The translations under genes were made by a program, and so were the position numbers. Shown here one piece after another: positions 5,070 through 32,930 of a stretch of 64,000 bases of DNA. Positions within the stretch are counted from its first letter, which is position 1, and every line of letters starts with the position of its first letter. This stretch comes from Frigoriglobus tundricola. Lineage in GTDB: Bacteria; Planctomycetota; Planctomycetia; Gemmatales; Gemmataceae. The stretch lies in contig NZ_CP053452.2 of NCBI RefSeq assembly GCF_013128195.2, positions 2,914,001-2,978,000 of the forward strand. The letters run 5' to 3'. The notes under the pieces were generated by a model. The model was not told where the DNA came from and searched no databases. It saw only the letters and a program-made list of their open reading frames with translations.

Positions 5070-6228
5070 TTACCTCGGCAAACAAGATTGTCATTAATCT
5101 GATGAGCAATAGCTGATCTTGGGGTGGAGGAAGTAGCTCATCACGTGTTTGGGGAGCATGAGGAGCTTGTGCATGAAGCGTTGGACGCGCGATCGCAAGG
5201 TCTTGCTGGTGTCGGGCAAGCCGGCGTCATGCACGTTCCCCTTCAGGTCGTTGTTGAGATATTCGTCGGGGTTCAATTCGGGGCTGTACCGGGGCAGATA
5301 AAACACGGCCACGCGTTCCTCATGCTCTTGTACCCACGTGGCGACCGTCTCCGTGGTGTGGGCCGACAAGCTATCCACGATCACAAAGATCGCGCCCGGC
5401 ACGGTCGCCAGCAGCTGCTTCAGGAACGCGATGAACCGTTCGGCGGTCATCGTCCCCGCGTACGTCATGAACCGCACCTCGCCCGTGTTGCTGATCCCGG
5501 ACACCATGTTGATCCGGATGTGCGGATCGGGAACCTGGATCGTCGCCCGTTCGCCCGCGCGGGCGTACCCGTAACCGGGATACGCGTCGGCGGCGACCCC
5601 CGTTTCATCGCACCAGAAGATGGTGGCCCGTTCCACCCGGGCCAGCTTCTCAATGGCCGGGTACGTCTGCTCGAGCCACTCCCGCACTTCGTCGGGGTCT
5701 TGTTTGCGGGCGTGGCGGGACGGCTTCTTGGCCGTGTAGCCCCAGCGCCGCAGGTATTCCCCCACGGTGCGGATCGGCATCCGGAGCCCGTACTCCTTGA
5801 GGATCAGATCGCGAACCGCGCGACGGTTCCACACCGGCGCGGCGATCCCCAGATCCGCCGGGCTCTTTGTGTCCAGGAGCTGTTGCAGATGAGCACACTG
5901 TGTGTCGGAAAGGGTGCGCCCGGTTCCGACCGGGCGCCCGGTGCGATCCTGGGGCAGGGCGTCCAACCCGCCGGTCGTGTACGCCGTCCACCAACGCGAC
6001 ACCGTTTCACCCGCCACACCCAGCACGCGGGCCACATCGGCTTGCGAGAACCCGGACTCGATCGCGTGCAACGCGCGCACGCGCAACGCCTGCATGACGT
6101 CGTCGGACAGCCCACGAGAATCCGGCAAGGTGATCGCCATGACACAGCAACCTATCGGACGATGGCAAGACCCATCAGGGCCTCAATGTGGACTCGTCTA
6201 GTTTTGAGCAACTTCCTTGCCGAAGTAA
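5070..6228 (-). mobile_element. Complete IS630-family insertion sequence, copy 2
   Basis: About 1,159 bp with terminal inverted repeats of 17 bp, TTACCTCGGCAAACAAG at one end and TTACTTCGGCAAGGAAG read inward from the other (14 of 17 match). It is flanked by TA at 5068-5069 and 6229-6230, the IS630 target duplication. It carries one intact transposase gene and sits inside the secreted-protein gene that starts at 6299. Confidence 0.92.
5094..6140 (-). CDS. IS630-family DDE transposase, intact
   Basis: 348 residues from ATG 6140. The N-terminal helix-turn-helix (about residues 30-60) includes SQADVARVLGVAGETVSRWW, followed by a second DNA-binding segment and a DDE domain with FWCDETG, FVIVDSLSAH and SPELNPDEYLNNDLK providing D, D and E. 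It is full length for IS630. Compared with copy 1 the catalytic core is nearly identical, with scattered substitutions. Confidence 0.95.
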   Translation of the reverse strand: MAITLPDSRGLSDDVMQALRVRALHAIESGFSQADVARVLGVAGETVSRWWTAYTTGGLDALPQDRTGRPVGTGRTLSDTQCAHLQQLLDTKSPADLGIAAPVWNRRAVRDLILKEYGLRMPIRTVGEYLRRWGYTAKKPSRHARKQDPDEVREWLEQTYPAIEKLARVERATIFWCDETGVAADAYPGYGYARAGERATIQVPDPHIRINMVSGISNTGEVRFMTYAGTMTAERFIAFLKQLLATVPGAIFVIVDSLSAHTTETVATWVQEHEERVAVFYLPRYSPELNPDEYLNNDLKGNVHDAGLPDTSKTLRSRVQRFMHKLLMLPKHVMSYFLHPKISYCSSD

Positions 6229-6620: not shown

Positions 6621-7265
6621 CTACTCTCCACATTCGGTCACCCGTCCGCTCTGCAAACGCAGAAGCCGCGTGCCCAGAAGCTCCGCTTCCGCCCGGCTGT
6701 GCGTAACGTGGAGGACGGTCGTTTCACTGCCGCTTCGCACGTCGTTCAGCAGCGCCACCATGCGGTCCCGGGTGAGTTCGTCCACGGCGTTGAGGGGCTC
6801 GTCGAGGAGCAGCACCGGCGGGCGAAACGCGAGCGCGCGGCCGAGCGCGACCCGCTGCGATTCGCCGCCGCTCAGCCCGACCGCGTACCGTCCGAGCAGC
6901 GCCGTGAGCCCGAGGCGGTCCGCCAACTCGTTCACGCGCGCGTCGATCTCCTTTGGTGGTGTCGATCGCACCGTGAGCGCGAAGGCGAGGTTCGCCCACA
7001 CGGTCATGGTCTTGAACAGCGCGGCGTCCTGGGGCACGTAGCCGACGTTCCGCGCCGCCGGCGGGAGTGCGGTCACGTCGCGGCCCGCGAGGCGGATGCG
7101 TCCGGCGGTCGGAGCGCGGAGCCCCGCGATCGCTTCGAGAATGGTCGTTTTGCCGGTCCCCGTCGGACCCATCAGCGCGGCGTACGCGCCGGTCGGGACG
7201 GTGAACGTCACGTCTTCGAGAGCGAACGCTGCTTGCCGGATGCATAACCCTTCGACCGCGATCAC
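6621..7265 (-). CDS. modC: Molybdate-type ABC transporter ATP-binding protein
   Basis: 214 residues, ATP-hydrolysing subunit energising anion import. Walker A GPTGTGKTT (about residues 33-41), Q-loop in YVPQDAALF, ABC signature LSGGESQRVALGRAL, Walker B VLLLDEPLNAVD and H-loop LHVTHS are all present. It lacks the C-terminal molybdate-sensing (TOBE/Mop) domain of classical ModC, so it is a short form. It follows the permease with a 16-nt gap on the same strand. Substrate choice (molybdate, tungstate or sulfate) is inferred from the neighbouring binding protein. Confidence 0.85.
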   Translation of the reverse strand: MIAVEGLCIRQAAFALEDVTFTVPTGAYAALMGPTGTGKTTILEAIAGLRAPTAGRIRLAGRDVTALPPAARNVGYVPQDAALFKTMTVWANLAFALTVRSTPPKEIDARVNELADRLGLTALLGRYAVGLSGGESQRVALGRALAFRPPVLLLDEPLNAVDELTRDRMVALLNDVRSGSETTVLHVTHSRAEAELLGTRLLRLQSGRVTECGE

Positions 7266-7281
7266 AGATGACTCACCCTCT

Positions 7282-8079
7282 TCAGATTAAACCGGTCCCG
7301 CGGAGGCCGAACGCGCGGGTCACGACCAGCACGGCCACGGCCACCGCGATCATCAGGAGCGAGACCGCCAGGGCGGCCTCCAGGTTCCCGACGCTCAGTT
7401 CCAGGAACACGCTGGTGGAGAGCACCTCGGTCCGCATCCGCGTCGCGCCGCAGAACACCAGGATCGGGCCGAACTCGCCCAGCGCGCGCGCCCAGGCGAG
7501 GGTGAACGCGGTCAGCACCCCGCGCCGCGCCTCCGGCAGCGTCACCCGCCAGAACGCACGGGCGCGCGAACAGCCGAGCGTGCGCGCGATGTCTTCGGTG
7601 CGCGGGTCGATCTGATCGAAGGTCACGCGCATCGTCCGCACCGCGAACGCGGCCGACACCGCGAACTGCGCCAGCACCACCCCGGCGACCGCATACGTGA
7701 CGGGGAACGCGGTGCGCTGGAACCACACGCCCGGCCCGGTTTGGAACAAGATGAGCAGGCTCAGCCCGACGACCACCGGCGGGAGCAGGATGGGCACGTC
7801 GAGCAGCACGTCGATCACCTCCCGGCCGTAGAACCGCGTGCGGGACAGCAGGTACCCGAGCGGCACGGCCACCCACACCGAGAGCACGGCCGCGGTCGAG
7901 CAGCTCAGCAGGCTCAGCACGATCGCCGAGCGAATCGGCGGCGAGGCGTACACCCGCGCCAGTTCGCCGACCGATGTGTGCGCGACGTCGGCCAGGATGA
8001 GCGCGGCGATGAGCAGGACGTACGAGCCGCCGAGGAGCCCCAGACAGAGGTAGAACGGGCGGTCGGAACGGGCGGTCAC
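7282..8079 (-). CDS. modB: Molybdate-type ABC transporter permease
   Basis: 265 residues from GTG 8079, which overlaps the TGA of the binding-protein gene (GTGA), so translation is coupled. The longer upstream frame was rejected because it runs antiphase through modA. There are about six hydrophobic helices. The EAA-type cytoplasmic loop contacting the ATPase is seen as ARTLGCSRARAFWRVTLPEA, then RALGEFGPILVF. The size and motif are typical of ModB/CysT-like inner-membrane subunits. Confidence 0.88.
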   Translation of the reverse strand: MTARSDRPFYLCLGLLGGSYVLLIAALILADVAHTSVGELARVYASPPIRSAIVLSLLSCSTAAVLSVWVAVPLGYLLSRTRFYGREVIDVLLDVPILLPPVVVGLSLLILFQTGPGVWFQRTAFPVTYAVAGVVLAQFAVSAAFAVRTMRVTFDQIDPRTEDIARTLGCSRARAFWRVTLPEARRGVLTAFTLAWARALGEFGPILVFCGATRMRTEVLSTSVFLELSVGNLEAALAVSLLMIAVAVAVLVVTRAFGLRGTGLI

Positions 8080-8930
8080 GGGGTCACTCCTTCGCGCAGC
8101 GCGGCCGCGATCCCGCCGGCCCTCTCTTCCACCTCGAACCCGTACTCGCGGAACCGGGCGAGCCCACCGGACGTGGCCGAAACGTACTGAACGAACCGGA
8201 GCGCGGCGGCCGGGTCTCGGGACTGCGTCAGCACGGCCAGTTCCACACGGCCGGTGACGCCGTCCAACTCGTGTAGCCGGAGAACGGTCTGGCCGCGGTA
8301 GGCCGGTCCGTTCGCGACCGCGTCCCACACGACCGCGGCGTCGGCACTGCCGGCCTTGGTCGCGTTCGCCGCTTCGGTGACGGTTCCGGTGTCCACGGCC
8401 CGCGGCTCCAGGGCGGCCCAGCGCCCGGTGCGCGTGAGGTGGTCGCGGGCCAACTTGCCGACGGCCGCGCCGGGGTTCGGTACGGCGACGGTCACGCCGG
8501 GACGGAGCAGATCGGCCCAGGCCGCGATTCCCTTCGGGTTACCCCTCGCCAGCAGCAGCACGCCGCGCACGCGCGCAACGGGAACCGATTCCGCAACCAG
8601 CCCGAACTCGCGTGCCTGCCGCACGTAGCTGTCATCGGCCGGGATGAACAGATCGGCCGGCGCGCCGGGGACCGGGAAGCGGACCTTGGTGAGGACGTCT
8701 TCCGACGCGCCGAACCGGAGCTCGATCCGCCGGCCGGTTTCGCGCTCGTAGTCGGCCGCTACAGCTTCCAATGGCAACCGGCTCGTGGGCGCGGCGTACA
8801 CGACGAGGGGCGGATCGAGCGGCCCGGGCCGGTTCTGGTGTTCGCGCCACCACAGGCCCGCGACCAGTCCGGCCAGCACGAGCAGCGAGCCGGTCGCGAC
8901 GGGAGTGGGTGAAGCGCCGAAGCGGGGCAC
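8076..8930 (-). CDS. modA: Molybdate-type ABC transporter substrate-binding protein
   Basis: 284 residues from GTG 8930. An N-terminal hydrophobic helix (about residues 12-28) acts as signal or membrane anchor. The periplasmic-binding fold begins PLVVYAAPTSRLPLEAVAADY and continues with RFGASEDVLTKV and PADLFIPADDSYVRQA, the ModA/TupA pattern of Ser/Thr-rich ligand loops. AAVVWDAVANG matches the conserved second-lobe motif. First gene of the modABC operon, immediately downstream of the inverted repeat at 8987-9094. Confidence 0.85.
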   Translation of the reverse strand: MPRFGASPTPVATGSLLVLAGLVAGLWWREHQNRPGPLDPPLVVYAAPTSRLPLEAVAADYERETGRRIELRFGASEDVLTKVRFPVPGAPADLFIPADDSYVRQAREFGLVAESVPVARVRGVLLLARGNPKGIAAWADLLRPGVTVAVPNPGAAVGKLARDHLTRTGRWAALEPRAVDTGTVTEAANATKAGSADAAVVWDAVANGPAYRGQTVLRLHELDGVTGRVELAVLTQSRDPAAALRFVQYVSATSGGLARFREYGFEVEERAGGIAAALREGVTP

Positions 8931-12203: not shown

Positions 12204-13244
12204 TCATGATAATATCGCCGACGTGCCGCCGTGGCACTTCTGCGCGCAGAGGTGTTCGAGCCAGTTGCGGTAGACGAGGGCGGCCGTGCCGCGCCAGGTG
12301 TTCAGCACCCGGGCGCCGCCGAGCACGGCCGAGAGTTCGCCGAGGAACCGGTCCTGGCGCGACGCCCGCGCCCGGGCCTCGATGTCCCGCAGGGCCTGCT
12401 CGACCTCGGCCTCGAAGTAGTTCAGCGGCAGCTGCGGGTACGTGTCCGCTTCCCCCTTGAGGTACCGCCCGACGTCCCGCCGGTACTCGCCCATGAGCGT
12501 CTCGGGCTCGTACTCCGGGTGGCCCTGGAAGAACACGAACAGCCCCGCGTCCTCCTTGACGAACGTGTCGACGCCGCCGTCACTCGTGCGCGTGAGCACC
12601 CGGTACCCGTTCGCGATGAGTTGCCCCGCGGGGACGCCGTTCCAGCGCGAGTGCGGGACGTGCAGCCGCGCGGGCGCGGCGGCGAGCAGGGCGTGCGGCG
12701 CGGCCCGCTCGCAGGCGAAGATCCCGAACTGCTTGTGCGGGCTCCGCACGCGCTCGATGCCGTCGAGCGCCAGTACCGCCGCGTGCGCCGCCAGGCACGA
12801 CCACACGGCCGAACACGCGTGCTCCTGCGCCCAGTCCAGCAGGCGCGTAAAACTGGGCCAGTAGGCCTCCTGGCGCAGGTCGGGGGTCCGGGGCTCGCGG
12901 CCGGTGACGATCAGCCCGTCCGGGCAGTGCCCGGGCGGCAGCGCCCAGAGCTGTTCGATACCGAAGTAGAAGCTGCCCACGCGCCGCTGGCCCGGGGGCT
13001 TCCGCTCGACCCCGGGCAGCGCGTAGAGCGTGACGTGGACCGACACGTCCCCCGCGGCCGCATCGAGCAGCGTGAGGAACTGGTATTCGGTCGCACTCAT
13101 GGCCGCATCGGCCATGTTGTTGACCAGGCCGATGTGCAGCACCCGGTCGTGCGGCGGTTCGAGCGCGCCGGGCCGCGCGCGGGGCCAGTTGAGGCCCGAG
13201 CGCCGCTCGGGGCCGGGGTACTTCGGGTTCAAGAAGACGGGCAT
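12204..13244 (-). CDS. metA: MetA-type homoserine O-acyltransferase
   Basis: 346 residues. Homoserine transsuccinylase family (glutamine-amidotransferase-like fold): LHIGLVNNMADAAMSATEYQ near the N-terminus, nucleophile Cys150 in WSCLAAHA, and the His/Glu pair in FFQGHPEYEPETL. The family acylates homoserine before sulfur transfer; acetyl or succinyl specificity cannot be read here. It follows metY by 33 nt, so the pair could make homocysteine. Given its place behind a biosynthetic block it could also supply a modified amino acid. The last few codons lie in AT-rich DNA. Confidence 0.85.
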   Translation of the reverse strand: MPVFLNPKYPGPERRSGLNWPRARPGALEPPHDRVLHIGLVNNMADAAMSATEYQFLTLLDAAAGDVSVHVTLYALPGVERKPPGQRRVGSFYFGIEQLWALPPGHCPDGLIVTGREPRTPDLRQEAYWPSFTRLLDWAQEHACSAVWSCLAAHAAVLALDGIERVRSPHKQFGIFACERAAPHALLAAAPARLHVPHSRWNGVPAGQLIANGYRVLTRTSDGGVDTFVKEDAGLFVFFQGHPEYEPETLMGEYRRDVGRYLKGEADTYPQLPLNYFEAEVEQALRDIEARARASRQDRFLGELSAVLGGARVLNTWRGTAALVYRNWLEHLCAQKCHGGTSAILS

Positions 13245-13277
13245 GGCACACTCTTCGTTGGGCGTTCGCGGTGGCGC

Positions 13278-14552
13278 TCACGTGGCCACGGTCAGGGCAC
13301 GATCGAGGTCGGCCAGGATGTCGTCAATGTGTTCGATTCCGATGCTCAGGCGGATCATCTCCGGCAGCACGCCGGCGCTGCGCTGTTGCTCGGGCGACAT
13401 CTGCCGGTGGGTGGTCGAAGCCGGGTGGCAGGCCAGCGACTTGGCGTCGCCCAGGTTCACCAGGCGGCTGACGAGCTCCAGCGCGTCGTAGAAGCGGATG
13501 GCGGCCTCGTAGCCGCCCGTGACGCCCACCGTGATCAGCGAGCAGCCCTGCCCGTTGAGGTACTTCTGCGCCAGGGCGTGGTACGGGCTGTCGGGGAAGC
13601 CGGCGTAATTGACCCAGGCCACGCGCGGGTCGCCGCGCAGGTACTCGGCCACCTTGCGGCCGTTCTCCACGTGGCGCTCGACGCGCAGCGCCGCGGTCTC
13701 GACCCCCTGGAGCAGCAGGAACGCGCTGAGCGGCGCGAGCACGGCCCCGGTGGCGCGCAGGTACCGGCTGCGGCAGCGGGCGATGTAGGCCGCCGGCCCG
13801 AAGCGCTCGGTGTACACCAGCCCGTGGTACGACCGGTCGGGCTCGCTGAACATGGGGAACCGCGCGGCGTGCTCCGCCCACGGGAAGTGACCGCTATCGA
13901 CGATGACGCCGCCGAGCGTCGTCCCGTGCCCGCCCATGAACTTGGTGAGCGAGTGGATCACGACGTCGGCGCCGTACTCGATCGGGCGCAGCAGCATCGG
14001 CGTGGCCACGGTGTTGTCCACCACGAGCGGCACGCCGTGCCGGTGCGCCACCCGCGCGAGCGCCTCGATGTCGCAGATGTTGCCGGCCGGGTTGCCCACG
14101 CTCTCGCAATAAACGGCCCGCGTCCCGCCGTCGATGAGCCGCTCGATCGCCTCGGGCCGGTCGGACTCGGCGAAGCGCGCCGACACGCCCTGGTCCGGCA
14201 GAACGTGCGCGAGCAGCGTGTGCGTCGTGCCGTACAGCTGGGGCGGCGCGACGATATTGCTGCCCATCCCGGCGAGGTTGAGCAGCGCGTAGTTCGTGGC
14301 GGCCTGGCCGGTGGCCACGCACATCGCTTCCACTCCGCCCTCGAGCGCGGCCATGCGCCGCTCCAGCACGGCCGTGGTGGGGTTGTTGATCCGCGTGTAG
14401 CGGTACCCCTCGGCCTCCAGGTTGAAGAGCGCCGCGGCGTGCTCGGCGCTGTCGAAGGCGTAGGCCACGGTCTGGTAGATCGGGACCGCAACCGAGCGCA
14501 CGGCGGCGTCGGGCTCGTACCCGGCGTGAATGGCGATCGTTTCGCGTTTCAT
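13278..14552 (-). CDS. metY: O-acylhomoserine sulfhydrylase / Cys-Met metabolism PLP enzyme
   Basis: 424 residues from ATG 14552 (MKRETIAIHAGYEPD); the upstream extension lacks similarity. Fold-type I PLP enzyme of the Cys/Met family: TRINNPTTAVLERRMAALEG, cofactor Asp in PLVVDNTVATP, Schiff-base Lys204 in HSLTKFMGGHGTT. Full length for MetY. It would exchange the acyl group of O-acylhomoserine for sulfide or another nucleophile. The same family also does gamma-replacements in natural-product pathways. Lies between the decarboxylase and metA on one strand. Confidence 0.9.
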   Translation of the reverse strand: MKRETIAIHAGYEPDAAVRSVAVPIYQTVAYAFDSAEHAAALFNLEAEGYRYTRINNPTTAVLERRMAALEGGVEAMCVATGQAATNYALLNLAGMGSNIVAPPQLYGTTHTLLAHVLPDQGVSARFAESDRPEAIERLIDGGTRAVYCESVGNPAGNICDIEALARVAHRHGVPLVVDNTVATPMLLRPIEYGADVVIHSLTKFMGGHGTTLGGVIVDSGHFPWAEHAARFPMFSEPDRSYHGLVYTERFGPAAYIARCRSRYLRATGAVLAPLSAFLLLQGVETAALRVERHVENGRKVAEYLRGDPRVAWVNYAGFPDSPYHALAQKYLNGQGCSLITVGVTGGYEAAIRFYDALELVSRLVNLGDAKSLACHPASTTHRQMSPEQQRSAGVLPEMIRLSIGIEHIDDILADLDRALTVAT

Positions 14553-14637
14553 CGAGACTCCAGCGTTAGCGCGTGCCCCTGTGCGGCACGCGTCCGGTCT
14601 GCGGGCGCGTTCGGGCTCACCTCGACAGCGGGCCGGC

Positions 14638-16014
14638 TCAAGCGCACCCCGCACCTTCCTGCCACAGTTGATTCATCCCTTCCACGATCTCGTGGATGTC
14701 GGTTTCCGTGGTGCGGAAATTGGTGACGCAGGCGCGCACCACCGGCACCCCGTTGACCCGGGCCTCGGACATCCAGGCGATCTGTCGCCGGTGCAGGGCG
14801 ACGAGAAAAGCGGCCGGGTCGAGGCGCTCGCGTGTAAAGCAGACCAGCGGCAGCGGCGTCTCGTTCGTGATCTGCCAGCCGGACGCCGCCAGCGCCCGCC
14901 GCAGGGCGTCGCCCAGGCGCGTCTGGTGCTCGATCATCGCGGCGTAGCCCGATTCGCCCAGGTTGGCCAGGGCCAGGAACAGCCGGAGCCCGATGAACCG
15001 CCGCGACCACTGCGCCGAGTGGGTCAGCGGGTTGAACACCGGTCCGGATTGCGCGCCGGACACGTAGGTCACGTCGGCGTGGAACGCCCGTGCCACGCTC
15101 TCCCGGTGCCGGCAGAAGAACATGCCGCAGCCCATTGGCACGGAAAACCACTTGTGCGCGTCGCAGGTGATCGAGTCGGCGTGCTCGACGCCCGCAAGAT
15201 GGCCCTTGAGCGCGGGCGACAGGACCGCCGCGCCGCCCCACGCCGCATCGGCGTGGAACCACAACCCCTCTTCGCGGCAGAACTGGGCGATGTCCGGCAG
15301 CGGGTCGATCACCCCGGTCGCCGTGGTGCCCGCCGAGCCGACGACCAGAAACGGCGCCCAGCCGTCGGCGCGGTCCCGGCGCACCCGGCGGCGCAGGCTG
15401 TCCACGTCGAGCTTCAGCCGGCGGTCGGTCTCGACTGTACGCACGGCGCGGCGCCCGAGCCCGGTCGTGTGCGCGATCTTGTTGAAGCCGTGGTGCGCCT
15501 CGTCCGTCAGATAGAGGCACGGGGCCGCCGGCAAGCCGCGCAGGCCGCGTTCGCCGTACTCCGGAAACACGTGACTGAGCGCCACCTGCACGGCCGAGAG
15601 GTTGGCTTCCGAGCCCCCGCTGGTAAACGTCGCAATGCTCTCGGCGGGCAGGCCGAACCGGGCCGCCAGCCAGCCCAGCGTGTGCCGCTCGATCTCGTTA
15701 CCGGCGGGCGAGGTGCGCCAGTTGGCGAGCTGGGAGTTGTACATCGCGACGAGCGTCTCGGCGATCACCGAGGGCAGCGTCACGGCCGGGTTGAACAGCC
15801 CCAGGTAGCGCGGGTGCGTCACCTGAACCTGCCAGGTCCGAAGCATCCGCTCGGCGTCCTGCACGACTTCGTCGAGGGGAAGCTCCTTTTGGAACTGGTA
15901 CCGGTCCGTGAGGTAGCCGCGAATCTCCTCCACCGTCACCGAAGGAAGGATCGGGCCGGCCGCGAGATCGGTCTGCACCCGCTCGAATTCGTGCTGGAAC
16001 GGCTCGATCTGCAT
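14638..16014 (-). CDS. PLP-dependent amino-acid decarboxylase (group II)
   Basis: 458 residues. Aromatic-amino-acid/glutamate decarboxylase family: THPRYLGLFNP near residue 66, SGGSEANLSA, the PLP-stacking His in TDEAHHGF (about 174), Asp255 in FHADAAWGGA, and Schiff-base Lys288 in CDAHKWFSVPMGCG. It converts an L-amino acid to an amine; the substrate cannot be told. It lies 85 nt upstream of metY on the same strand, so they may be co-transcribed. Confidence 0.9.
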   Translation of the reverse strand: MQIEPFQHEFERVQTDLAAGPILPSVTVEEIRGYLTDRYQFQKELPLDEVVQDAERMLRTWQVQVTHPRYLGLFNPAVTLPSVIAETLVAMYNSQLANWRTSPAGNEIERHTLGWLAARFGLPAESIATFTSGGSEANLSAVQVALSHVFPEYGERGLRGLPAAPCLYLTDEAHHGFNKIAHTTGLGRRAVRTVETDRRLKLDVDSLRRRVRRDRADGWAPFLVVGSAGTTATGVIDPLPDIAQFCREEGLWFHADAAWGGAAVLSPALKGHLAGVEHADSITCDAHKWFSVPMGCGMFFCRHRESVARAFHADVTYVSGAQSGPVFNPLTHSAQWSRRFIGLRLFLALANLGESGYAAMIEHQTRLGDALRRALAASGWQITNETPLPLVCFTRERLDPAAFLVALHRRQIAWMSEARVNGVPVVRACVTNFRTTETDIHEIVEGMNQLWQEGAGCA

Positions 16015-16325
16015 GGGCTCTCACCCGAGGCGGACACGGGGCAGCGGTTGGTGCGCGGTTCGAGTGCCGCCGGTCCGGCTCTCGCTTCCGAAGCCCGAAG
16101 AAACACCGGATTCACCACAAAGGCACAAAGAACACGCAGATAAGAACGTGACCGAGAGTGGCGCTGAAGGAGAACGCTTGTTCTCTTGGCCTTTAACCTC
16201 TCTCGGTGCCCTCTCCCCCCGCTGCGCGGGGACGCTCTCTGTGGTGAATACTCTTTCTCTCTTTTGCAAATACGAGCCCGACCGGTTGCACCCGAGTCAC
16301 TTGTCGGGAACCGTTCGGCCCCAAC
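16015..16325. other. Non-coding gap with dispersed-repeat-like sequence
   Basis: No gene. It contains ATTCACCACAAAGGCACAAAG at about 16110 and, inverted, CTCTCTGTGGTGAAT at about 16230, so a ~130-bp segment is bounded by inverted TTCACCACA ends. It separates the FATP-led operon from the decarboxylase-metY-metA group, so these may be two transcripts. Confidence 0.5.
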
Positions 16326-18131
16326 TCATAAGCGGATGCTCCCCGCGCAGATGCCGTCGTACATCGGCGCGTCGAGCGCGGTGTAAGCGCGCCGTTCGGG
16401 GTGATAGAAGTACAGTGGGTCGGCGCATTGGGCCGGGTCGAACCCCTGCCGGACCAGATCGGTCTTCGCGTATTTGAACGTGCCGGTCAGCGTCGCCTGC
16501 GGACAGAGCCGGAGAAACAGCGGCCGCGCGTAGGCGGGCAGCCGCTCGGCCAGGTGCCCGTGGAGGGCGGCAAGATCGATCGCGCCCTCACAGACGAGGG
16601 CCGCCATCCCGGCGCGGCCCTCGGCGCCCGGAACCGCCACCCCGTAGACGCTCGCGTGCAGCACGCCGTCGAACGCGCCGAGTTCTTGCGCCACCTCGGA
16701 GGTGGCCACGTTCTCGCCCTTCCAGCGGAAGGTGTCCCCGACGCGATCGACGAAGTAGAAGAACCCCTTCTCGTCCCGGCGCATCAGGTCGCCGGTCCGG
16801 ACCCAGGCGTCGCCCGGCGCGAACACGTTGCGCAGGACCTTCTTTTCGGTCTCGGCCGCGCTGGTGTAGCCCTCGAACCGGCCGCCGGCGCCCGCCGGAT
16901 CGTGCCGCACCTTGCCGAGCGCCTCGCCGGGCTCGTTGACGCCGCAGCGGATACAGAAACCGTTCTCATCGCGAACGGGCGCGCCCGTGTCGGAGTCGAA
17001 GCGGACCAGCGCCGGCGCGTACCGGTGCTCGAGGTACGGGGGGATGTGGCCAATCGCTCCGGGCCGGCCCTGTACGTTGAACAGCGAGAGCCCCCCCTCC
17101 GTGGCGGCATAGAACTCGAGGACCTGCGGGATGCGGAAGCGCTGCTGGAACGCCTCCCACACGCCGGCGGCGAGGCCGTTGCCCACCGCCAACCGGAGGC
17201 GGTGCCCGGTCTCGTTCTCCGCACGGGGCAGGTGCAGCAGGTAGCGGCAGAGTTCGCCGATGTACTGGAACGCGGTACACTCCCAGCGGTTGATGTCGCT
17301 CCAGAACTGGCTCGCCGAGAACCGCTCGCGCACCACCATCGAGCCGCCCGCGGCCAGCACCGCGCCCGGGGCCAGCACCCCCCCGACGCTGTGGTACATG
17401 GGCAGGCAGTTGTACAGGCGGTCGCCCGGCTGCGCGTCCATCATGCCCGCGAACCACAGGCCCCATTGCATCACGCGCGCGTGGCTCACGTTGACGGCCT
17501 TGGGCATTCCCGTGCTGCCCGACGTGAAGATGTAAAGCGCGCGGTCGTCAATCGTGACGTCGCGCGCCTCTTCGGCCCCGAGCGGCGCGTCGGTCAGGGC
17601 CTCGATCGTCGCCCCGAGGCCCCGCGCCCCGCCGTGAGCCCACACCTGCGGCGGCGCGGCGAGGTGCGGGAGGGCCGTCTCGAGCGCGTCGGCGAGTTCC
17701 GCGGCGACGATGACGTGTGTGGCCGAAGCGGCCTGAACGCAGTGCGCGAGAGACGGCCCGGTGAGGTTGGTGTTCAGCAGCGCGACGACGCCGCCGACGC
17801 GGGTGACGCCCAGCCAGACGGCCAGGTACTCGGGGCGGTTGGGCATCAGCAGGCCCACCACGTCGCCCTTCGCCACGCCCCGTGCGAGCGCCCAGCGGGC
17901 GTACCGCCGCGCCCGCCCGGCGAGGTCCCGGTAGGAGAAGCACTCGCGCTCGGACAGCAGCGCGGGCTTGTCCCCGAGCCGGTGGCCCAACTCGTCGACG
18001 ACCGCGGGCAGCACGCGGCCGCGCTGGCGGGGGATCGGCGCCGTCAGCTCGAGGGCGCGGAGCCAGGCCCGCGACACGGACCCGCCCGGCCGCGCAGCCG
18101 TTTGAACGATCTCGGTGCGCGCCGCACTCAT
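16326..18131 (-). CDS. Long-chain acyl-CoA/ACP synthetase, FATP-like
   Basis: 601 residues of the ANL superfamily. The AMP-binding P-loop is IFTSGSTGMPKA (about residue 200). Other motifs are FYAATEGG, WVRTGDLMRRDE, the hinge DRVGDTFRWKGENVATSEV (very FATP/very-long-chain synthetase-like) and the C-terminal catalytic region GTFKYAK with its Lys. It activates a carboxylic acid as acyl-AMP and passes it to CoA or ACP. It overlaps the SDR gene by four bases (ATGA). Last gene of the tight five-gene set. Confidence 0.9.
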   Translation of the reverse strand: MSAARTEIVQTAARPGGSVSRAWLRALELTAPIPRQRGRVLPAVVDELGHRLGDKPALLSERECFSYRDLAGRARRYARWALARGVAKGDVVGLLMPNRPEYLAVWLGVTRVGGVVALLNTNLTGPSLAHCVQAASATHVIVAAELADALETALPHLAAPPQVWAHGGARGLGATIEALTDAPLGAEEARDVTIDDRALYIFTSGSTGMPKAVNVSHARVMQWGLWFAGMMDAQPGDRLYNCLPMYHSVGGVLAPGAVLAAGGSMVVRERFSASQFWSDINRWECTAFQYIGELCRYLLHLPRAENETGHRLRLAVGNGLAAGVWEAFQQRFRIPQVLEFYAATEGGLSLFNVQGRPGAIGHIPPYLEHRYAPALVRFDSDTGAPVRDENGFCIRCGVNEPGEALGKVRHDPAGAGGRFEGYTSAAETEKKVLRNVFAPGDAWVRTGDLMRRDEKGFFYFVDRVGDTFRWKGENVATSEVAQELGAFDGVLHASVYGVAVPGAEGRAGMAALVCEGAIDLAALHGHLAERLPAYARPLFLRLCPQATLTGTFKYAKTDLVRQGFDPAQCADPLYFYHPERRAYTALDAPMYDGICAGSIRL

Positions 18132-18865
18132 GCCGTGTTCCCCGCGTCAACAGTGAGAACGGTTCCGGTGACGTTCTTGGCGCCGGGGCTGAGCAAATAC
18201 GCCACAGCGGCGGCGACGTCGTCCACCTCGACCAGGCGGCGCAAGGCGCTGCGCCGGACAATCTGCTCGCGGTGCTCGTCGGTCAGCCCTTTGGTCATTT
18301 CGGTATCGACGAACCCCGGCGCGACCGCGTTCACGGTGATGCCGGTCCGGCCCACCTCGCGCGCCAGCGAGCGGGTGAAGCCGATCATGGACGCTTTGGT
18401 AGCGCCGTAAACGGAGAGCCCGCTGTACCCGGTGGAGGCCACGATCGAGGCCATGTTGACAATGCGCCCGCCGGCGCCGTCGGCCATCATCGACCGCAAG
18501 ACGCACTTGCTGAGCAGGATGGGTGAAACCACGTTGAGCCGGACCACTTGCTCGATTTGCGGCGCGCTCGCAAGCGCCAGCGTCCCATCGATGCTCATGC
18601 CCGCGTTGTTCACCAGGGCATAGATGGGGCCGAGGCCCGTGCGGAGCTGCTTGACCAGCGCGGCCATCCCGTCGGTTTCGGCCAGATCGTATGCCGTGAA
18701 GCCGATGGGGCCGGTGCCGCTCCGCGCGGCCTCGTCGATGGCCGCGCGCAATTCGGGGCTCTCGTTGCGCGCGAGGGCCGTTACCCGGTAACCGGCTTTC
18801 GCTAAACAGCGAACGATGCCCAATCCGATACCGCGGCTCCCGCCGGTCACGATGACGTTACTCAT
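18128..18865 (-). CDS. Short-chain dehydrogenase/reductase, FabG-like
   Basis: 245 residues from ATG 18865 (MSNVIVTGGSRGIGLGIV); the upstream extension overlaps the ligase gene and was dropped. NAD(P)-binding TGGSRGIG, NNAG in ALVNNAGMSIDG, catalytic Ser, Tyr and Lys in STGYSGLSVYGATKASM, and a VAPGFVDTEMT motif. This is typical of 3-oxoacyl-ACP reductases. It overlaps both neighbours, so it is translationally coupled and probably reduces a keto group on the ACP- or CoA-bound product. Confidence 0.92.
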   Translation of the reverse strand: MSNVIVTGGSRGIGLGIVRCLAKAGYRVTALARNESPELRAAIDEAARSGTGPIGFTAYDLAETDGMAALVKQLRTGLGPIYALVNNAGMSIDGTLALASAPQIEQVVRLNVVSPILLSKCVLRSMMADGAGGRIVNMASIVASTGYSGLSVYGATKASMIGFTRSLAREVGRTGITVNAVAPGFVDTEMTKGLTDEHREQIVRRSALRRLVEVDDVAAAVAYLLSPGAKNVTGTVLTVDAGNTA

Positions 18866-20255
18866 GACGGCGTACCAGCTTCCCGGTCTCCGAGATGGCC
18901 AACATGGGCACAAAGCGGATCGCCGCCGGAACCTTGTGCGGCGCCAGCGACTCGCGGCAGAACTGCTTGATCGTCCGTTCCAGTTCGCGCGCCGGTTCGT
19001 CCCCGGTGGCCGGCGGCTCCTTAAGAACCACGTCGGCGACCACGAGCGCGCCGGTAATCGGGCTCTTCTTCGTCTTGACCAGGGACAGCCGCACCCGGGG
19101 GTGGCGGTTCAGCACGGCTTCGACTTCTTCGGGATAGACCTTGAGCCCGCCGACGTTGATCACGCCGTCGCGCCGGCCCTGGAAGTGGTACCGGCCGTCG
19201 CGCAGGTCCAGCACGTCGCCCGTGTCGACGAAGCCCTCCGCATCCTTCAGCGCGGGCGGGTTCTCGCCGAGGTAGCGTTCGGCGGTGCGGCCGGAGCGGA
19301 CGCGCAGCGTCGCGTCCACCACCTTCAGCTCGACGCCCGCCGTGCCCGTGAGCACACCGGCCGGGACCCCCGCCAGCCCGTCGCGGACGTCGAAGGCCAC
19401 GCCGGCCTCGGTGGTGGCGAAGGCGTGGCTGATCTCGGCGCCGGGATAGAAGGCGCGCAGGCTGTTGAGGACGGACTGGTCGGCGATCTCGCCCGAGAGC
19501 CGGATGTACCGGGGCGCGATGCGCGCGGCTTCGGGGCTCATCAGCGCCCGCCGCCAGTGCGACGGCGTACCGGAGATGTGCGTGACGCCGGCCGCTCCCG
19601 CGCGCCGCAGGAAGTCCCCCGCGCCCTCCTGCGGCCCGGGGATGACCAGCGAGGCGCCCGCGAGGACGGCGCGGAGGTAGATCTGCAAGCCGCCGTAGCG
19701 GCGAATGTCGTAAAACGTGCCCCAGATCACTTCGGTGCGCGACGCACTCGCACCGATGGCCCCCGTCAAACTCGCCAGCGTGTGCAGCACCATTTTGGGC
19801 CGGCCGGTTGTTCCCGAGGTGAGCAGAACCCACTCGGTCGCCCGCCGGTCGTGGGCGGCACGAACGCGCGGGACCAGCGCCGGCGCGCAGACGACGTGAC
19901 GCACGCCGCCGATCGGGGCGCCGCCGAGCGCGCGGCCGTCGGAGACCAGCGCGTCCACCTCGGCGGACCGGATGACGTAGGGCAGGTGCTCGAGAGCCAG
20001 GTCCGGCGGGTAAAGGGTCACGCGCCGCGCCAGGCCATCGAGCTCGATTAGCGCGAGCGCGGCGACAAACGGGTCCGTGGCGGCGATCAGGACCGATCCG
20101 CCGTGCAGCTCCTCGACACCGGACGCGATCGCCGTCCCCCCGAGCAGGGCGCCGAGCGCGGTGCGGTGTTCGGCGCCGATCAGGTCGCCGGGCGGCACCC
20201 CGGAACCGACGATCGCGTCCCGCAAGCTCGGATGGCTGTTACACGGCGTTTTCAT
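18858..20255 (-). CDS. AMP-dependent ligase (ANL superfamily), ACP-linked
   Basis: 465 residues from ATG 20255, overlapping the end of the ACP gene by 17 bases; a TTG four codons earlier is unlikely. Shorter than common acyl-CoA synthetases. Motifs: LLTSGTTGRPKMVLHT, ISGTPSHWRRALM, FATTEAGVAF, DTGDVLDLRDGRY, GRRDGVINVGGLKVYPEEVE and the catalytic Lys in SETGKLVRR. The arrangement suggests it adenylates an acid and loads the adjacent ACP. The acid is unknown and the substrate pocket cannot be decoded here. Confidence 0.85.
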   Translation of the reverse strand: MKTPCNSHPSLRDAIVGSGVPPGDLIGAEHRTALGALLGGTAIASGVEELHGGSVLIAATDPFVAALALIELDGLARRVTLYPPDLALEHLPYVIRSAEVDALVSDGRALGGAPIGGVRHVVCAPALVPRVRAAHDRRATEWVLLTSGTTGRPKMVLHTLASLTGAIGASASRTEVIWGTFYDIRRYGGLQIYLRAVLAGASLVIPGPQEGAGDFLRRAGAAGVTHISGTPSHWRRALMSPEAARIAPRYIRLSGEIADQSVLNSLRAFYPGAEISHAFATTEAGVAFDVRDGLAGVPAGVLTGTAGVELKVVDATLRVRSGRTAERYLGENPPALKDAEGFVDTGDVLDLRDGRYHFQGRRDGVINVGGLKVYPEEVEAVLNRHPRVRLSLVKTKKSPITGALVVADVVLKEPPATGDEPARELERTIKQFCRESLAPHKVPAAIRFVPMLAISETGKLVRRHE

Positions 20256-20481
20256 AGAAGCGTACAAACTCTCCCACGCTCACGGGGAAAGGGGCGCCTT
20301 CATTTGTGCCGAACGGGTCCTTGCCCAGAACGGTCTCCAGGCGGCTGACGATGATGGCGAAGCACAGCGAGTCCAGGCCCAGCTCCTGCAGCGGCGTTTC
20401 ATCGGACAGCGGCCCGAGCCGCTTGTCCTGCTCCTGTGCGACCTGCCGAAACTGGTCCAAAATATCCGATCGAACGCTCAT
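20239..20481 (-). CDS. Acyl/peptidyl carrier protein
   Basis: 80 residues from ATG 20481 with a GGAG ribosome site; the upstream in-frame extension is non-coding. Four-helix ACP pattern with the phosphopantetheine Ser38 in ELGLDSLCFA. It is free-standing, not the fatty-acid AcpP (no fab genes adjacent). Placed between the iron enzyme and the AMP ligase, it probably carries the substrate of the oxidase. Confidence 0.88.
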   Translation of the reverse strand: MSVRSDILDQFRQVAQEQDKRLGPLSDETPLQELGLDSLCFAIIVSRLETVLGKDPFGTNEGAPFPVSVGEFVRFYENAV

Positions 20482-20535
20482 ACACAAGTTCTCCGGTCCC
20501 GACGAGCGGGCACGCGCGTTTTTCGGACCCACGGT

Positions 20536-21201
20536 TCAGGCGGCCCGCGGCCCGGATTGGGGCCGGATGATCCGCTCGATCAGCGTGCGGAGCAGGTTGA
20601 CGCCCTCGAAGAGGTCGGCGTCCGGCTCGGGCGGCGCCAGTGCGAGTTCGGCGGCCAGGACCTTGAAGAGCCCTTCGGTGTGCTCGATGTCGCAGACGCC
20701 GTGGACCTCGGTGTACTCCTGCTCCGTCGAACCCTGTTTCGTGGCCAGGTACGCCAGGTAGGGCATGAACTTTTGAATGAAGCCCTCGAAGAAGCCCATC
20801 ATCAGGACCGACTTGACCGCTTCGAGCCGGCCCAGGAACAGGCGGACCTTGGTCAGGTCATCGTTCACGGCCAACGCGTCTTGATCCGTGGGAAAGGCGT
20901 CGGCCGCGATCGCGAACTTGCGCAGCATCAGCGGGTGGCAGTCGCGCACTTCCTCGTTCAGATTTCCCAGCAGGATGGGCCGCGAGTGCTCCGCTTTGGC
21001 GGCGAGGGCCGTGGCGGTCATCCAGTAGATGAAATTGCCTTCGAGCACCGAAGTGTACCGCGCGATGATCCCCCGGCGCTCTTCGCCGGTGAGCTGTTTC
21101 GGGTCGGGCAGTGAATCGATGAGCTCGTCGATGATTGCGAACGTCTTGTCTTCAAGTGGCGCAACAGGATTTGCGAGCAAGCATTCGGGCGATGATGACA
21201 C
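20536..21201 (-). CDS. Heme-oxygenase-like iron-containing redox enzyme (HDO/CADD/UndA type)
   Basis: 221 residues from GTG 21201, which has GAGGA six bases upstream; a TTG at 21258 would add 19 residues without clear similarity. All-helical. The pattern matches the TenA/PqqC-like iron redox family: Glu in VLEGNFIYW (~54), NEEVRDCH with Glu and His (~83-89), Glu139 in FFEGFIQKFMPY, and H167-xxx-D171-xx-H174 in EVHGVCDIEHTEG. Members include UndA (terminal alkene formation), BesC and SznF (C-C or N-oxygenation). The reaction here is unknown. Head gene of the ACP-ligase operon. Confidence 0.72.
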   Translation of the reverse strand: MSSSPECLLANPVAPLEDKTFAIIDELIDSLPDPKQLTGEERRGIIARYTSVLEGNFIYWMTATALAAKAEHSRPILLGNLNEEVRDCHPLMLRKFAIAADAFPTDQDALAVNDDLTKVRLFLGRLEAVKSVLMMGFFEGFIQKFMPYLAYLATKQGSTEQEYTEVHGVCDIEHTEGLFKVLAAELALAPPEPDADLFEGVNLLRTLIERIIRPQSGPRAA

Positions 21202-21331
21202 AGCAAGTCCTCGGTAAGGGGAGGGATTCTGATACAAAAGGGAGTTAAGTAGCGACAATACGGATTGGTCGCTTTGAGATAACCTTGGGCGTTAGGTTAG
21301 AGGGGAAAAATTGGCTGTTAGTAGAATTCTT

Positions 21332-21360
21332 ACAATATACGTAGTCCTCACTGCTGTCAA
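21332..21360 (-). promoter_or_regulatory. Sigma-70-type promoter for the HDO-ACP operon
   Basis: On the minus strand a perfect TTGACA (21360-21355), a 17-base spacer and TATTGT (21337-21332), in a locally AT-rich stretch. The predicted start is near 21325, leaving a leader of roughly 120 bases before GTG 21201. This is the best consensus promoter noticed in the window. Confidence 0.6.
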
Positions 21361-31364: not shown

Positions 31365-32930
31365 TCACTCGAACGCCTTGATCAGGGCCTCGAGCATCGT
31401 GACGAGAGATCGGGCGTGAGGCGTCACGGGCGGGACCACGCGGTCGATGCCGAGGAGCTGGTAGACGGCCGTTTGGGCGGCCCGGACCGAGTACTCGACC
31501 GTGAAGACGACGTCGTCCGGGATCTCGACGAACTGGCTCACGAACGCGAAGTTGCGCGACCCGGGGGGCACCGGGACCGGCCGGTCCCCAAGGCCCCGGG
31601 GCATGAACATACTGGTCAGGAACGGCATCCGGCACGGGATGCAGTTGGCGGCCGCCAGGGCCTCCGGGTCGAACCGCAGGTGGCCGCAGAGCTCCTGAAG
31701 GATCTCCGCGCCGGTGCAGTCGGCCATCGGCTTCGGCACGAAATCGCCGACGCGGTCCGGAAAGAGGGCGTACCCCCAGAACACGAACACGTCCTCGGGC
31801 TGGTTCGGGAAGTGGGGCTGGGCCGCCAGGACGATCGACATCAGCCAGTTCGAATCCTTGAAACTCACGAGCCCGCCCGTGCCCGCGCGGTTCCCGCTGA
31901 GCCGGAACATTTCGTCGAAGAACGTGGACGTGTTCAGGGTGACGGTGAACGACTCCCAGTACGACTGGGCGATGCAACTGTTGAAGGCCGCGGGCCGCCC
32001 GAAGTTGGGGCGGCCCGCGGCGAGTTTCTCCCAGACGGCCCAACTGCTGTCCGCCTTGGTCCGTTTGGCGGGCGCGGTCGTCGTCGAACCGAGGCTGGAG
32101 GCGTCGGTCATCGAGCCGTTTTGCAGAAACACCAGATCCCCGTCGCTCACGGGGATCACTTCGGCGCGCGCCGCCCGCACGCACCGGATGCCGGTCACGA
32201 CGAGCCGGCCGTCCTCGGTCTTGTGGTCGAGCTCGGTCGCGCGACAGTCGGTGACCATCCGGACCCCCCGGGCGGCGAGCCACGTCTGGAGCGGGACGAC
32301 CAGGGAGTCGTACTGGTTGTAGACGGTCCGCTTGACGCCCGCGAGCGTTTCGATGCGGGTGAACTCGAGCAGGAACCGGAGCAGGTACCGCTTGAACTCC
32401 ACGGCGCTGTGCCACGGCTGGAACGCGAACGTCGTGGACCACAGGTACCAGAAATTGGTGCCGAAGAACTCGGGGGCGAGGCAGTCGGTGATCCGACGGT
32501 CCGCCAAGGCCCCCTCGTCGGTCCGGGCGAGCCCCAGCAGTTCCAACCGGTCCCGCACGGAGAACCCCATCGAACGCACCGGGACGATCGCCCGGCGGCG
32601 GTCGACGAGGCGGGCCCGCGAATGGGCCTCGTGCCGCTCGTTGAACGCCACGGTCTCGTCGAACACCGATTGGCCCGCGTGGCGGAGCGACGGGATCGAT
32701 TTGTACAGGTCCCAGGTGCACTCGTAGTTGTCGGTCGTCAACATGCGCCCGCCGCGCATGGAGTACCCGCCCGCGGGGGCCCCCGCCCCGTCCAGGCTGC
32801 CGCCCAGGACCGGGAGCGCTTCGAGGATCGAAATGTTACTCCCGGGCAGGTGGCCGTCGCGGACCAGGAAGGCGGCGGCCGCCAGGGACCCGATCCCGCC
32901 GATGAGATAGACTTTTGAGTCGGTGCGCAC
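31365..32930 (-). CDS. ohyA: Oleate hydratase
   Basis: 521 residues, FAD-dependent water addition to the cis-9 double bond of oleate and similar fatty acids. N-terminal dinucleotide motif in VYLIGGIGSLAAAAFLVRDG and SILEALPVLGGSLDGAG, the RGGRMLTTDNYECTWDL loop with the catalytic Glu, GTNFWYLWSTTFAFQPWHSA, and C-terminal CRMPFLTSMFMPR. Slightly short relative to 560-650-residue relatives. It lies 64 bases downstream of the alcohol dehydrogenase, so the pair may detoxify or modify fatty acids. Confidence 0.93.
   Translation of the reverse strand: MRTDSKVYLIGGIGSLAAAAFLVRDGHLPGSNISILEALPVLGGSLDGAGAPAGGYSMRGGRMLTTDNYECTWDLYKSIPSLRHAGQSVFDETVAFNERHEAHSRARLVDRRRAIVPVRSMGFSVRDRLELLGLARTDEGALADRRITDCLAPEFFGTNFWYLWSTTFAFQPWHSAVEFKRYLLRFLLEFTRIETLAGVKRTVYNQYDSLVVPLQTWLAARGVRMVTDCRATELDHKTEDGRLVVTGIRCVRAARAEVIPVSDGDLVFLQNGSMTDASSLGSTTTAPAKRTKADSSWAVWEKLAAGRPNFGRPAAFNSCIAQSYWESFTVTLNTSTFFDEMFRLSGNRAGTGGLVSFKDSNWLMSIVLAAQPHFPNQPEDVFVFWGYALFPDRVGDFVPKPMADCTGAEILQELCGHLRFDPEALAAANCIPCRMPFLTSMFMPRGLGDRPVPVPPGSRNFAFVSQFVEIPDDVVFTVEYSVRAAQTAVYQLLGIDRVVPPVTPHARSLVTMLEALIKAFE

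Follow-up and report, generated by a model that had tools for sequence, protein, structure and literature searches.

We analyzed a 64,000-nt stretch of the Frigoriglobus tundricola genome (contig NZ_CP053452.2, forward-strand positions 2,914,001 to 2,978,000; here called the window, whose numbering is used throughout) and found a unit of eight genes on its minus strand. A preliminary description had reported five of these, and their identity, order, and overlapping ends were borne out. The first gene encodes a haem-oxygenase-like dimetal oxidase (HDO; 20536 to 21201), with a GTG start preceded by GAGGA; a longer frame with a TTG start reaches 21258. It is followed by genes for a free acyl carrier protein (ACP) of 80 amino acids with a GLDSL phosphopantetheine site (20239 to 20481), a compact ANL ligase that is probably an aminoacyl-ACP synthetase (18858 to 20255), a FabG-like short-chain dehydrogenase/reductase (SDR) with a conserved S-Y-K catalytic set (18128 to 18865; assigned by Pfam, NCBIfam, and alignment), and a ligase of the FATP/long-chain acyl-CoA synthetase type (16326 to 18131). 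The borders originally drawn around these five genes proved too narrow. In relatives, the unit usually extends over eight genes, corresponding to 12204 to 21258. The additional members encode a group II pyridoxal phosphate (PLP)-dependent amino acid decarboxylase (14638 to 16014; Pfam and NCBIfam), a homologue of MetY-like O-acylhomoserine sulfhydrylases (13278 to 14552, with a likely ATG at 14552 and a longer GTG frame to 14654), and a MetA-like homoserine O-acyltransferase (HTS; 12204 to 13244) that retains the Cys and His/Glu motifs. As previously stated, open reading frame (ORF) and Pfam scans revealed no polyketide synthase (PKS) or nonribosomal peptide synthetase module within the unit.

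In the window, the ACP and ANL genes overlap by 17 nt, the ANL and SDR genes by 8 nt, and the SDR and FATP genes by 4 nt. The HDO and ACP genes are 54 nt apart, and a gap of 311 nt separates the FATP and decarboxylase genes. The promoter proposed upstream of the HDO gene is present as a sigma-70-like pattern (TTGACA-17-TATTGT; 21332 to 21360, minus strand) matching the consensus at 10 of 12 positions; it occurs once between 15900 and 21800, compared with a mean of 0.3 in shuffled sequence.

Conservation of the gene set

A pattern scan of a collection holding one genome per species for 84,980 species located HDO relatives at 49 loci, a lower bound because the scan used six peptide patterns of one protein. 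The loci were in Acidobacteria, Rokubacteria, one Pirellulales metagenome-assembled genome (MAG), and one doubtful edge fragment labelled Formivibrio. A partner gene was counted as present when it lay anywhere on the same strand, in those loci where enough DNA follows the HDO gene (2.0 kb for ACP, 3.5 kb for ANL, 4.5 kb for SDR, 6.0 kb for FATP, and 7.5 kb for the rest). The ANL ligase was present in all 37 such loci, the ACP in 36 of 40, the SDR in 29 of 31, and the FATP-type ligase in 25 of 28. The decarboxylase (25/27) and MetY (24/27) were found almost as consistently, and 16 of 27 had MetA. For most of the 11 loci that appeared to lack it, the sequence examined ends within or just past MetY. 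The survey gave strong conserved synteny; neither of the outcomes that the preliminary description had named as refuting it, a lack of synteny or of the metal ligands, was seen. Several loci (for example, L003, L017, and L028) match the window's gene order all the way to 12204. Among the departures, L021 and L045 carry the HDO gene after the FATP gene, and the FATP gene scored as missing in L039 and L046 lies on the opposite strand. With starts assigned by rule, neighbouring genes overlapped or were at most 50 nt apart in most ACP-ANL (33/38), ANL-SDR (36/37), SDR-FATP (31/32), decarboxylase-MetY (17/18), and MetY-MetA (8/10) pairs, and less often in HDO-ACP (17/36) and FATP-decarboxylase (6/24) pairs. 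Chance ORFs were ruled out by the catalytic residues and by synteny that is conserved across phyla. One Rokubacteria MAG (G486) carries two copies of the unit (L026 and L030), the second of which is without ACP and SDR.

The MetA and MetY genes are dedicated copies that are inherited with the unit. MetY exceeds the cut-off of the TIGR01326 subfamily (598 versus 495.1 bits) and misses the equivalog NF004757 (644.7 versus 790 bits); its PLP lysine is conserved in the 15 rows aligned. MetA passes PF04204 and, narrowly, NF003776 (361.1 versus 358 bits), falls far short of TIGR01001 (123.8 versus 495 bits), and keeps its catalytic Cys (14 rows). Among 19 genomes of the genus searched, HTS was found in that of the window and was absent from the other 18. 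By comparison, 13 of the 15 unit-bearing genomes searched have HTS, in 14 copies (two of them in G486 with its two units), and 13 of these copies share a contig with a unit-type MetY; the remaining one, in G478, is on another contig and adjoins an exosortase gene. Unit-type MetY proteins are 72 to 89% identical to that of the window, compared with at most 54% for the other paralogues in the same genomes, and each unit-bearing genome searched retains other Cys/Met PLP enzymes. Since the unit includes both a MetY-like and a MetA-like enzyme, homoserine is a likely precursor.

The HDO and its carrier protein partners

The HDO is remote from characterized proteins at the sequence level. It reached 22.1 bits against PF14518 (gathering cut-off, 28.9), an NCBIfam scan returned no match, and phmmer found no HDO among PDB sequences at E values up to 10; another PDB sequence search gave a weak match to 4-aminobenzoate synthase (E of 0.03). 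An AlphaFold2 model built on an alignment of 44 sequences (pLDDT 90.0, pTM 0.84) was predicted to have the haem-oxygenase-like helical fold. Among the fold matches listed, the closest solved structures were CADD (1rcw; Z of 19.8, 2.5 Å over 196 aligned residues) and HrmI (9n1a; Z of 18.6, 2.8 Å, 202 aligned), with UndA and other HDOs also among the matches. Foldseek returned nothing at an E value of 0.001 or better, and its best match was again HrmI (2.3e-3, probability 1.00). Residues that the preliminary description had named as metal ligands are conserved in relatives. Numbered here by adding 19 to the earlier positions, they are E73, E102, H108, E158, H186, D190, and H193. All but E102 are invariant across the 44 rows of the alignment; E102 is at least 90% conserved and stands next to another invariant glutamate (E103). 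The invariant E103, H108, E158, H186, D190, and H193, together with E73, correspond to a ligand set of the 3H/3C type and, judged by pattern and fold, are the predicted metal ligands. The unit's HDO shares its predicted fold and conserved residues with CADD, HrmI, UndA, SznF, and BesC, but it is only 9 to 17% identical to known HDOs in structural alignments. The HDO class holds over 10,000 sequences, for which about a dozen reactions are known, including N-oxygenation, desaturation, and C-C cleavage, and characterized members have mostly been linked to fatty- or amino-acid substrates (PMC13108848); the review sections consulted do not mention an ACP partner for them, whereas the HDO studied here comes with one.

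Pfam cut-offs were exceeded by the ACP (PP-binding), both ligases (AMP-binding), and the SDR (SDR families). Ser38 of the ACP is identical in all 15 aligned rows, and the FATP-type ligase scored 741.2 bits against NF006134 (long-chain acyl-CoA synthetase; cut-off, 625). The ANL ligase has the P-loop and C-terminal lysine (36 rows) and adjoins a free ACP, features that we take as the marks of a VinN-type enzyme. The best solved relatives of its core (residues 130 to 330 of the long frame) were beta-aminoacyl-ACP synthetases, at a weak 34 bits (E of 1.9e-7); full-length searches ranked other ANL enzymes higher (best, 3etc at 60.7 bits), and the ANL profile found nothing in the PDB at an E value of 1e-20. 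In VinN-type aminoacyl-ACP synthetases, an acidic residue binds the amino group. Within the weak core match, D182 of the ANL ligase is paired with the FDF aspartate in the alignment to 5jjp but not in those to 7dq5 and 6m01. Because the core matches beta-aminoacyl-ACP synthetases and a free ACP is adjacent, the ligase is most economically read as forming an aminoacyl-ACP.

Among the closest known systems is the beta-amino acid cassette of macrolactam pathways. In vicenistatin biosynthesis, VinL is the carrier that VinN loads, VinO removes the carboxyl group of the amino acid while it is bound to the ACP, and a second adenylating enzyme, VinM, takes part (PMC11284099). The ACP, ANL ligase, decarboxylase, and second ligase of the unit fit this scheme, as do the best PDB matches of the ANL core. 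Unlike that cassette, the unit has an HDO, SDR, MetY, and MetA in addition, and its decarboxylase resembles DesA-type and diaminobutyrate (DABA) decarboxylases. No PKS acceptor occurs within the window's unit; the related loci were not searched for one individually.

Distribution and genomic surroundings

The unit is rare in planctomycetes. The HDO was found in one of 19 genomes of the genus, and a search of 99 relatives added a single genome with a weak match (E of 9.3e-4). Of 392 planctomycete genomes, two matched, namely that of the window and one with a weak match (1e-4) that is perhaps another HDO; among 396 acidobacterial genomes, there were three strong matches and one weak one. A search of plasmids gave no match. 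The weak matches, in planctomycete and acidobacterial genomes (L002, L057, and L061; E values of 9.3e-4, 1e-4, and 4.7e-5), may represent further uncharacterized HDOs. In a midpoint-rooted tree of 47 HDOs, the window's protein pairs with that of the Pirellulales MAG (support of 100/99), and the pair is nested in an 18-row group (100/98) whose other members are from Acidobacteria, mostly labelled Acidobacteriaceae. This rarity and placement fit a transfer from Acidobacteria. The case rests on the tree and the distribution, since base composition does not stand out (69.4% G+C in the unit versus 66.4% and 70.0% in the flanks). The HDOs of L030 and L034 are at zero tree distance under two phylum names, L034 being in a MAG labelled Acidobacteria; this is a sign of misbinning or of a shared contig, and MAG labels are not fully reliable.

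We then considered the DNA upstream of the HDO gene in related loci. Pfam analysis of 82 upstream ORFs identified 10 GT4 glycosyltransferases, four NusG/UpxY antiterminators, three Wzy_C proteins, and two Bac_transf proteins. Against NCBIfam, at an E value of 1e-15 or better, eight ORFs matched TIGR03088, seven TIGR04063, four UpxY, and three TIGR03097. TIGR03088 and TIGR03097 are named for the XrtA system, a label that is only suggestive here because these counts use E values in place of the curated cut-offs and the same glycosyltransferases match other GT4 families. In L039, an exosortase gene precedes the HDO gene by 2.75 kb (TIGR02602, 116.1 versus 105.55 bits). Other single cases score below their cut-offs, namely WecA-like transferases upstream in L018 and L033 and, in L024, a protein similar to the chain-length determinant of the XrtA system. 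By clustering, at least 17 of the 49 loci adjoin exopolysaccharide-type genes, at odds, for those loci, with the earlier suggestion of a stand-alone pathway; the preliminary description was sound as to the fold, ligands, free ACP, two ligases, SDR, and synteny, but its gene set was incomplete and the pathway does not stand alone in many loci. Exosortase matches were present in 16 of 25 genomes searched.

Acyltransferase-like genes recur in and beside the unit. Hexapeptide proteins are encoded inside it in L007, L009, L010, L013, and L014, and L021 has one at the head of the unit (assigned by scan for L007 and L013 and by cluster membership for the others). A GNAT-like tandem protein with no Pfam match adjoins the decarboxylase in six loci (L008, L029, L036, L040, L044, and L047). 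Counting exopolysaccharide-type, acyltransferase-like, and hydrolase genes together, clustering gave 28 of 49 loci. This count includes 14 acyltransferase loci, three of which (L019, L038, and L046) depend in whole or in part on possibly artefactual minus-strand ORFs. It omits L036, whose GNAT-like gene was found by tblastn. The presence of acyltransferase-like proteins with unrelated folds suggests an acyl group as the end product, for transfer to an amine or a hydroxyl, and the neighbourhood suggests that the acceptor is a polysaccharide.

We take XrtA exopolysaccharide loci to group a TIGR03098 ligase, a TIGR03099 decarboxylase, and TIGR03100/TIGR03101 hydrolases. The unit is similar in its surroundings and in having an ACP, an AMP-ligase, and a PLP decarboxylase, and five related loci encode a pair of hydrolases, one similar to TIGR03100 and the other to TIGR03101 (a single example of each was scanned, both scoring below the cut-off; the rest were assigned by cluster). 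In contrast, its two ligases scored only 56.8 and 117.4 bits against TIGR03098 (cut-off, 592.35), and TIGR03099 was not among the 12 families listed for its decarboxylase; membership of these two families was rejected accordingly. We know of no counterpart of the HDO, MetY, or MetA in XrtA loci.

Proposed pathway and alternatives

From the gene set and its synteny, the catalytic residues, the predicted HDO fold, the rarity and tree position, the neighbours, and the co-inheritance of MetA and MetY, we infer an ACP-based pathway, encoded by eight apparently horizontally acquired genes, in which an amino acid derived from homoserine is converted to an acyl or aminoacyl substituent of exopolysaccharide. 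We give this reading a probability of a little under one-half (about 0.45). MetA would acylate homoserine, and MetY would exchange the acyl group for a nucleophile, yielding a gamma-substituted 2-aminobutyrate. The ANL ligase would load the amino acid onto the free ACP; the PLP enzyme would decarboxylate it in free or ACP-bound form, and the HDO would oxidize it in an iron-dependent reaction. Tailoring would also include a reduction, and the FATP-type ligase would supply a second acyl group. In the donor lineages, a local acyltransferase would pass the finished group to an exosortase-type exopolysaccharide or linked glycoconjugate; in the planctomycete studied here, this step may be carried out by a gene located elsewhere.

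Sulfide is the ordinary nucleophile of MetY. In the fungal pathways to fusaric acid and loline, Fub7 and LolC use O-acetylhomoserine (OAH) as a C4 electrophile with carbon or nitrogen nucleophiles. The unit likewise pairs a homoserine acyltransferase with a MetY-like enzyme, and FUB7 was among the best PDB matches of its MetY (446 bits); however, OAH sulfhydrylases scored higher (481 and 476 bits), and a carbon or nitrogen nucleophile for the unit's MetY finds no support. The bolder proposition that the HDO takes a homoserine-derived amino acid attached to the ACP as its substrate, giving a new type of exopolysaccharide substituent, with MetA and MetY performing a gamma-substitution with a nucleophile other than sulfide in a cassette spread among Acidobacteria, Rokubacteria, and planctomycetes, is one that we consider unlikely.

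Several observations weigh against the exopolysaccharide pathway. The ORFs scanned beside the two planctomycete copies (window and L003) included no recognizable exopolysaccharide or acyltransferase gene; in the window, these were 17 ORFs outside the unit (not every gene), with no glycosyltransferase among them, and the exosortase matches in the same genome are at least 0.88 Mb away. Clustering assigned exopolysaccharide-type genes to only the 17 loci given above, though many contigs are short. The link from the ANL ligase to aminoacyl chemistry depends on the 34-bit match. The model of the GNAT-like protein is of low confidence (pLDDT 54.6), although almost all of its listed fold matches were GNAT-type acyltransferases (best Z of 11.8). 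The gene set also has exceptions: L030 and L034 are without ACP and SDR, L025 has no other unit gene in the 2.6 kb past its HDO, and L038 lacks ACP, decarboxylase, MetY, and MetA within the DNA examined, its counted FATP being a 25% identical relative and the true copy lying on the opposite strand. Acidipila rosea (G476, L008) and G491 (L037) show neither HTS nor unit-type MetY; an assembly gap is possible in both, because L008 and L037 end at contig edges. Lastly, the gaps between the FATP and decarboxylase genes are wide (median, 193 nt), and the unit may therefore be two transcripts.

Appreciably less probable is that the product is a small natural product that diffuses freely and that the exopolysaccharide neighbourhood is only a common landing place for gene cassettes. 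The scanned ORFs beside the two planctomycete copies, in which no exopolysaccharide or transferase gene was recognized, favor this notion, as do cytochrome P450 genes adjoining or within the unit at three loci (seen by scan in L026 and L013 and by cluster in L010) and the fatty- and amino-acid substrates to which characterized HDOs have mostly been linked (PMC13108848). Yet glycosyltransferases, UpxY-type antiterminators, an exosortase, and acyltransferase-like genes recur near the unit in different lineages, and the conserved eight genes include no exporter.

N-acyl amino acid synthases are often exosortase associated. We regard it as quite improbable, however, that the product is an N-acylated amine or aminolipid, in which a long-chain acid activated by the FATP-type ligase and an amine made by the decarboxylase from the MetA/MetY product are joined by a GNAT or hexapeptide enzyme. 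The NF006134 assignment and the six loci with GNAT-like proteins next to the decarboxylase agree with it, and planctomycetes make N-acyl tyrosines (PMC12479983). However, no N-acyl amino acid synthase was recognized in the unit, and the free ACP, ANL ligase, and HDO would be left with no role. That MetA and MetY merely supply homocysteine or methionine as chance neighbours is very improbable: their TIGR01326 and NF003776 assignments and the ordinary OAH sulfhydrylases among the PDB relatives of MetY would fit, but the HTS distribution, the linkage of 13 of 14 copies to the unit, and the other Cys/Met PLP enzymes retained in the same genomes led us to reject housekeeping methionine synthesis as the main reading.

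The unit is a new combination within known ACP-tethered biosynthesis. To our knowledge, the eight genes have not been described together, while the individual pieces are of known kinds; none of the open-licence papers listed in literature searches showed the set in its title or abstract opening, a weak absence given that range of literature. Its HDO comes with seven near-fixed partner enzymes and a clear precursor candidate in homoserine, and some of its carriers are on record as strains (Terracidiphilus gabretensis S55, Acidipila rosea DSM 103428, and Granulicella sp. L46), so that its reaction could be found. If the unit does decorate exopolysaccharide, it would also help to approach the modules of ACP, ligase, and decarboxylase in exosortase-type polysaccharide loci, the product of which, as far as we know, has so far lacked an explanation.

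Other genes in the window include IS66 and DDE_3-type transposase genes (2378 to 3934, plus strand; 5094 to 6140, minus strand) less than 10 kb from the end of the unit at which MetA lies; they may be a trace of mobility. Past MetA are genes for an ABC transporter ATPase and permease of the molybdate/tungstate/sulfate type (6621 to 8328, minus strand), with specific models below their cut-offs. An MCRA family gene lies at 31365 to 32930 on the minus strand (PF06100, 649 bits).

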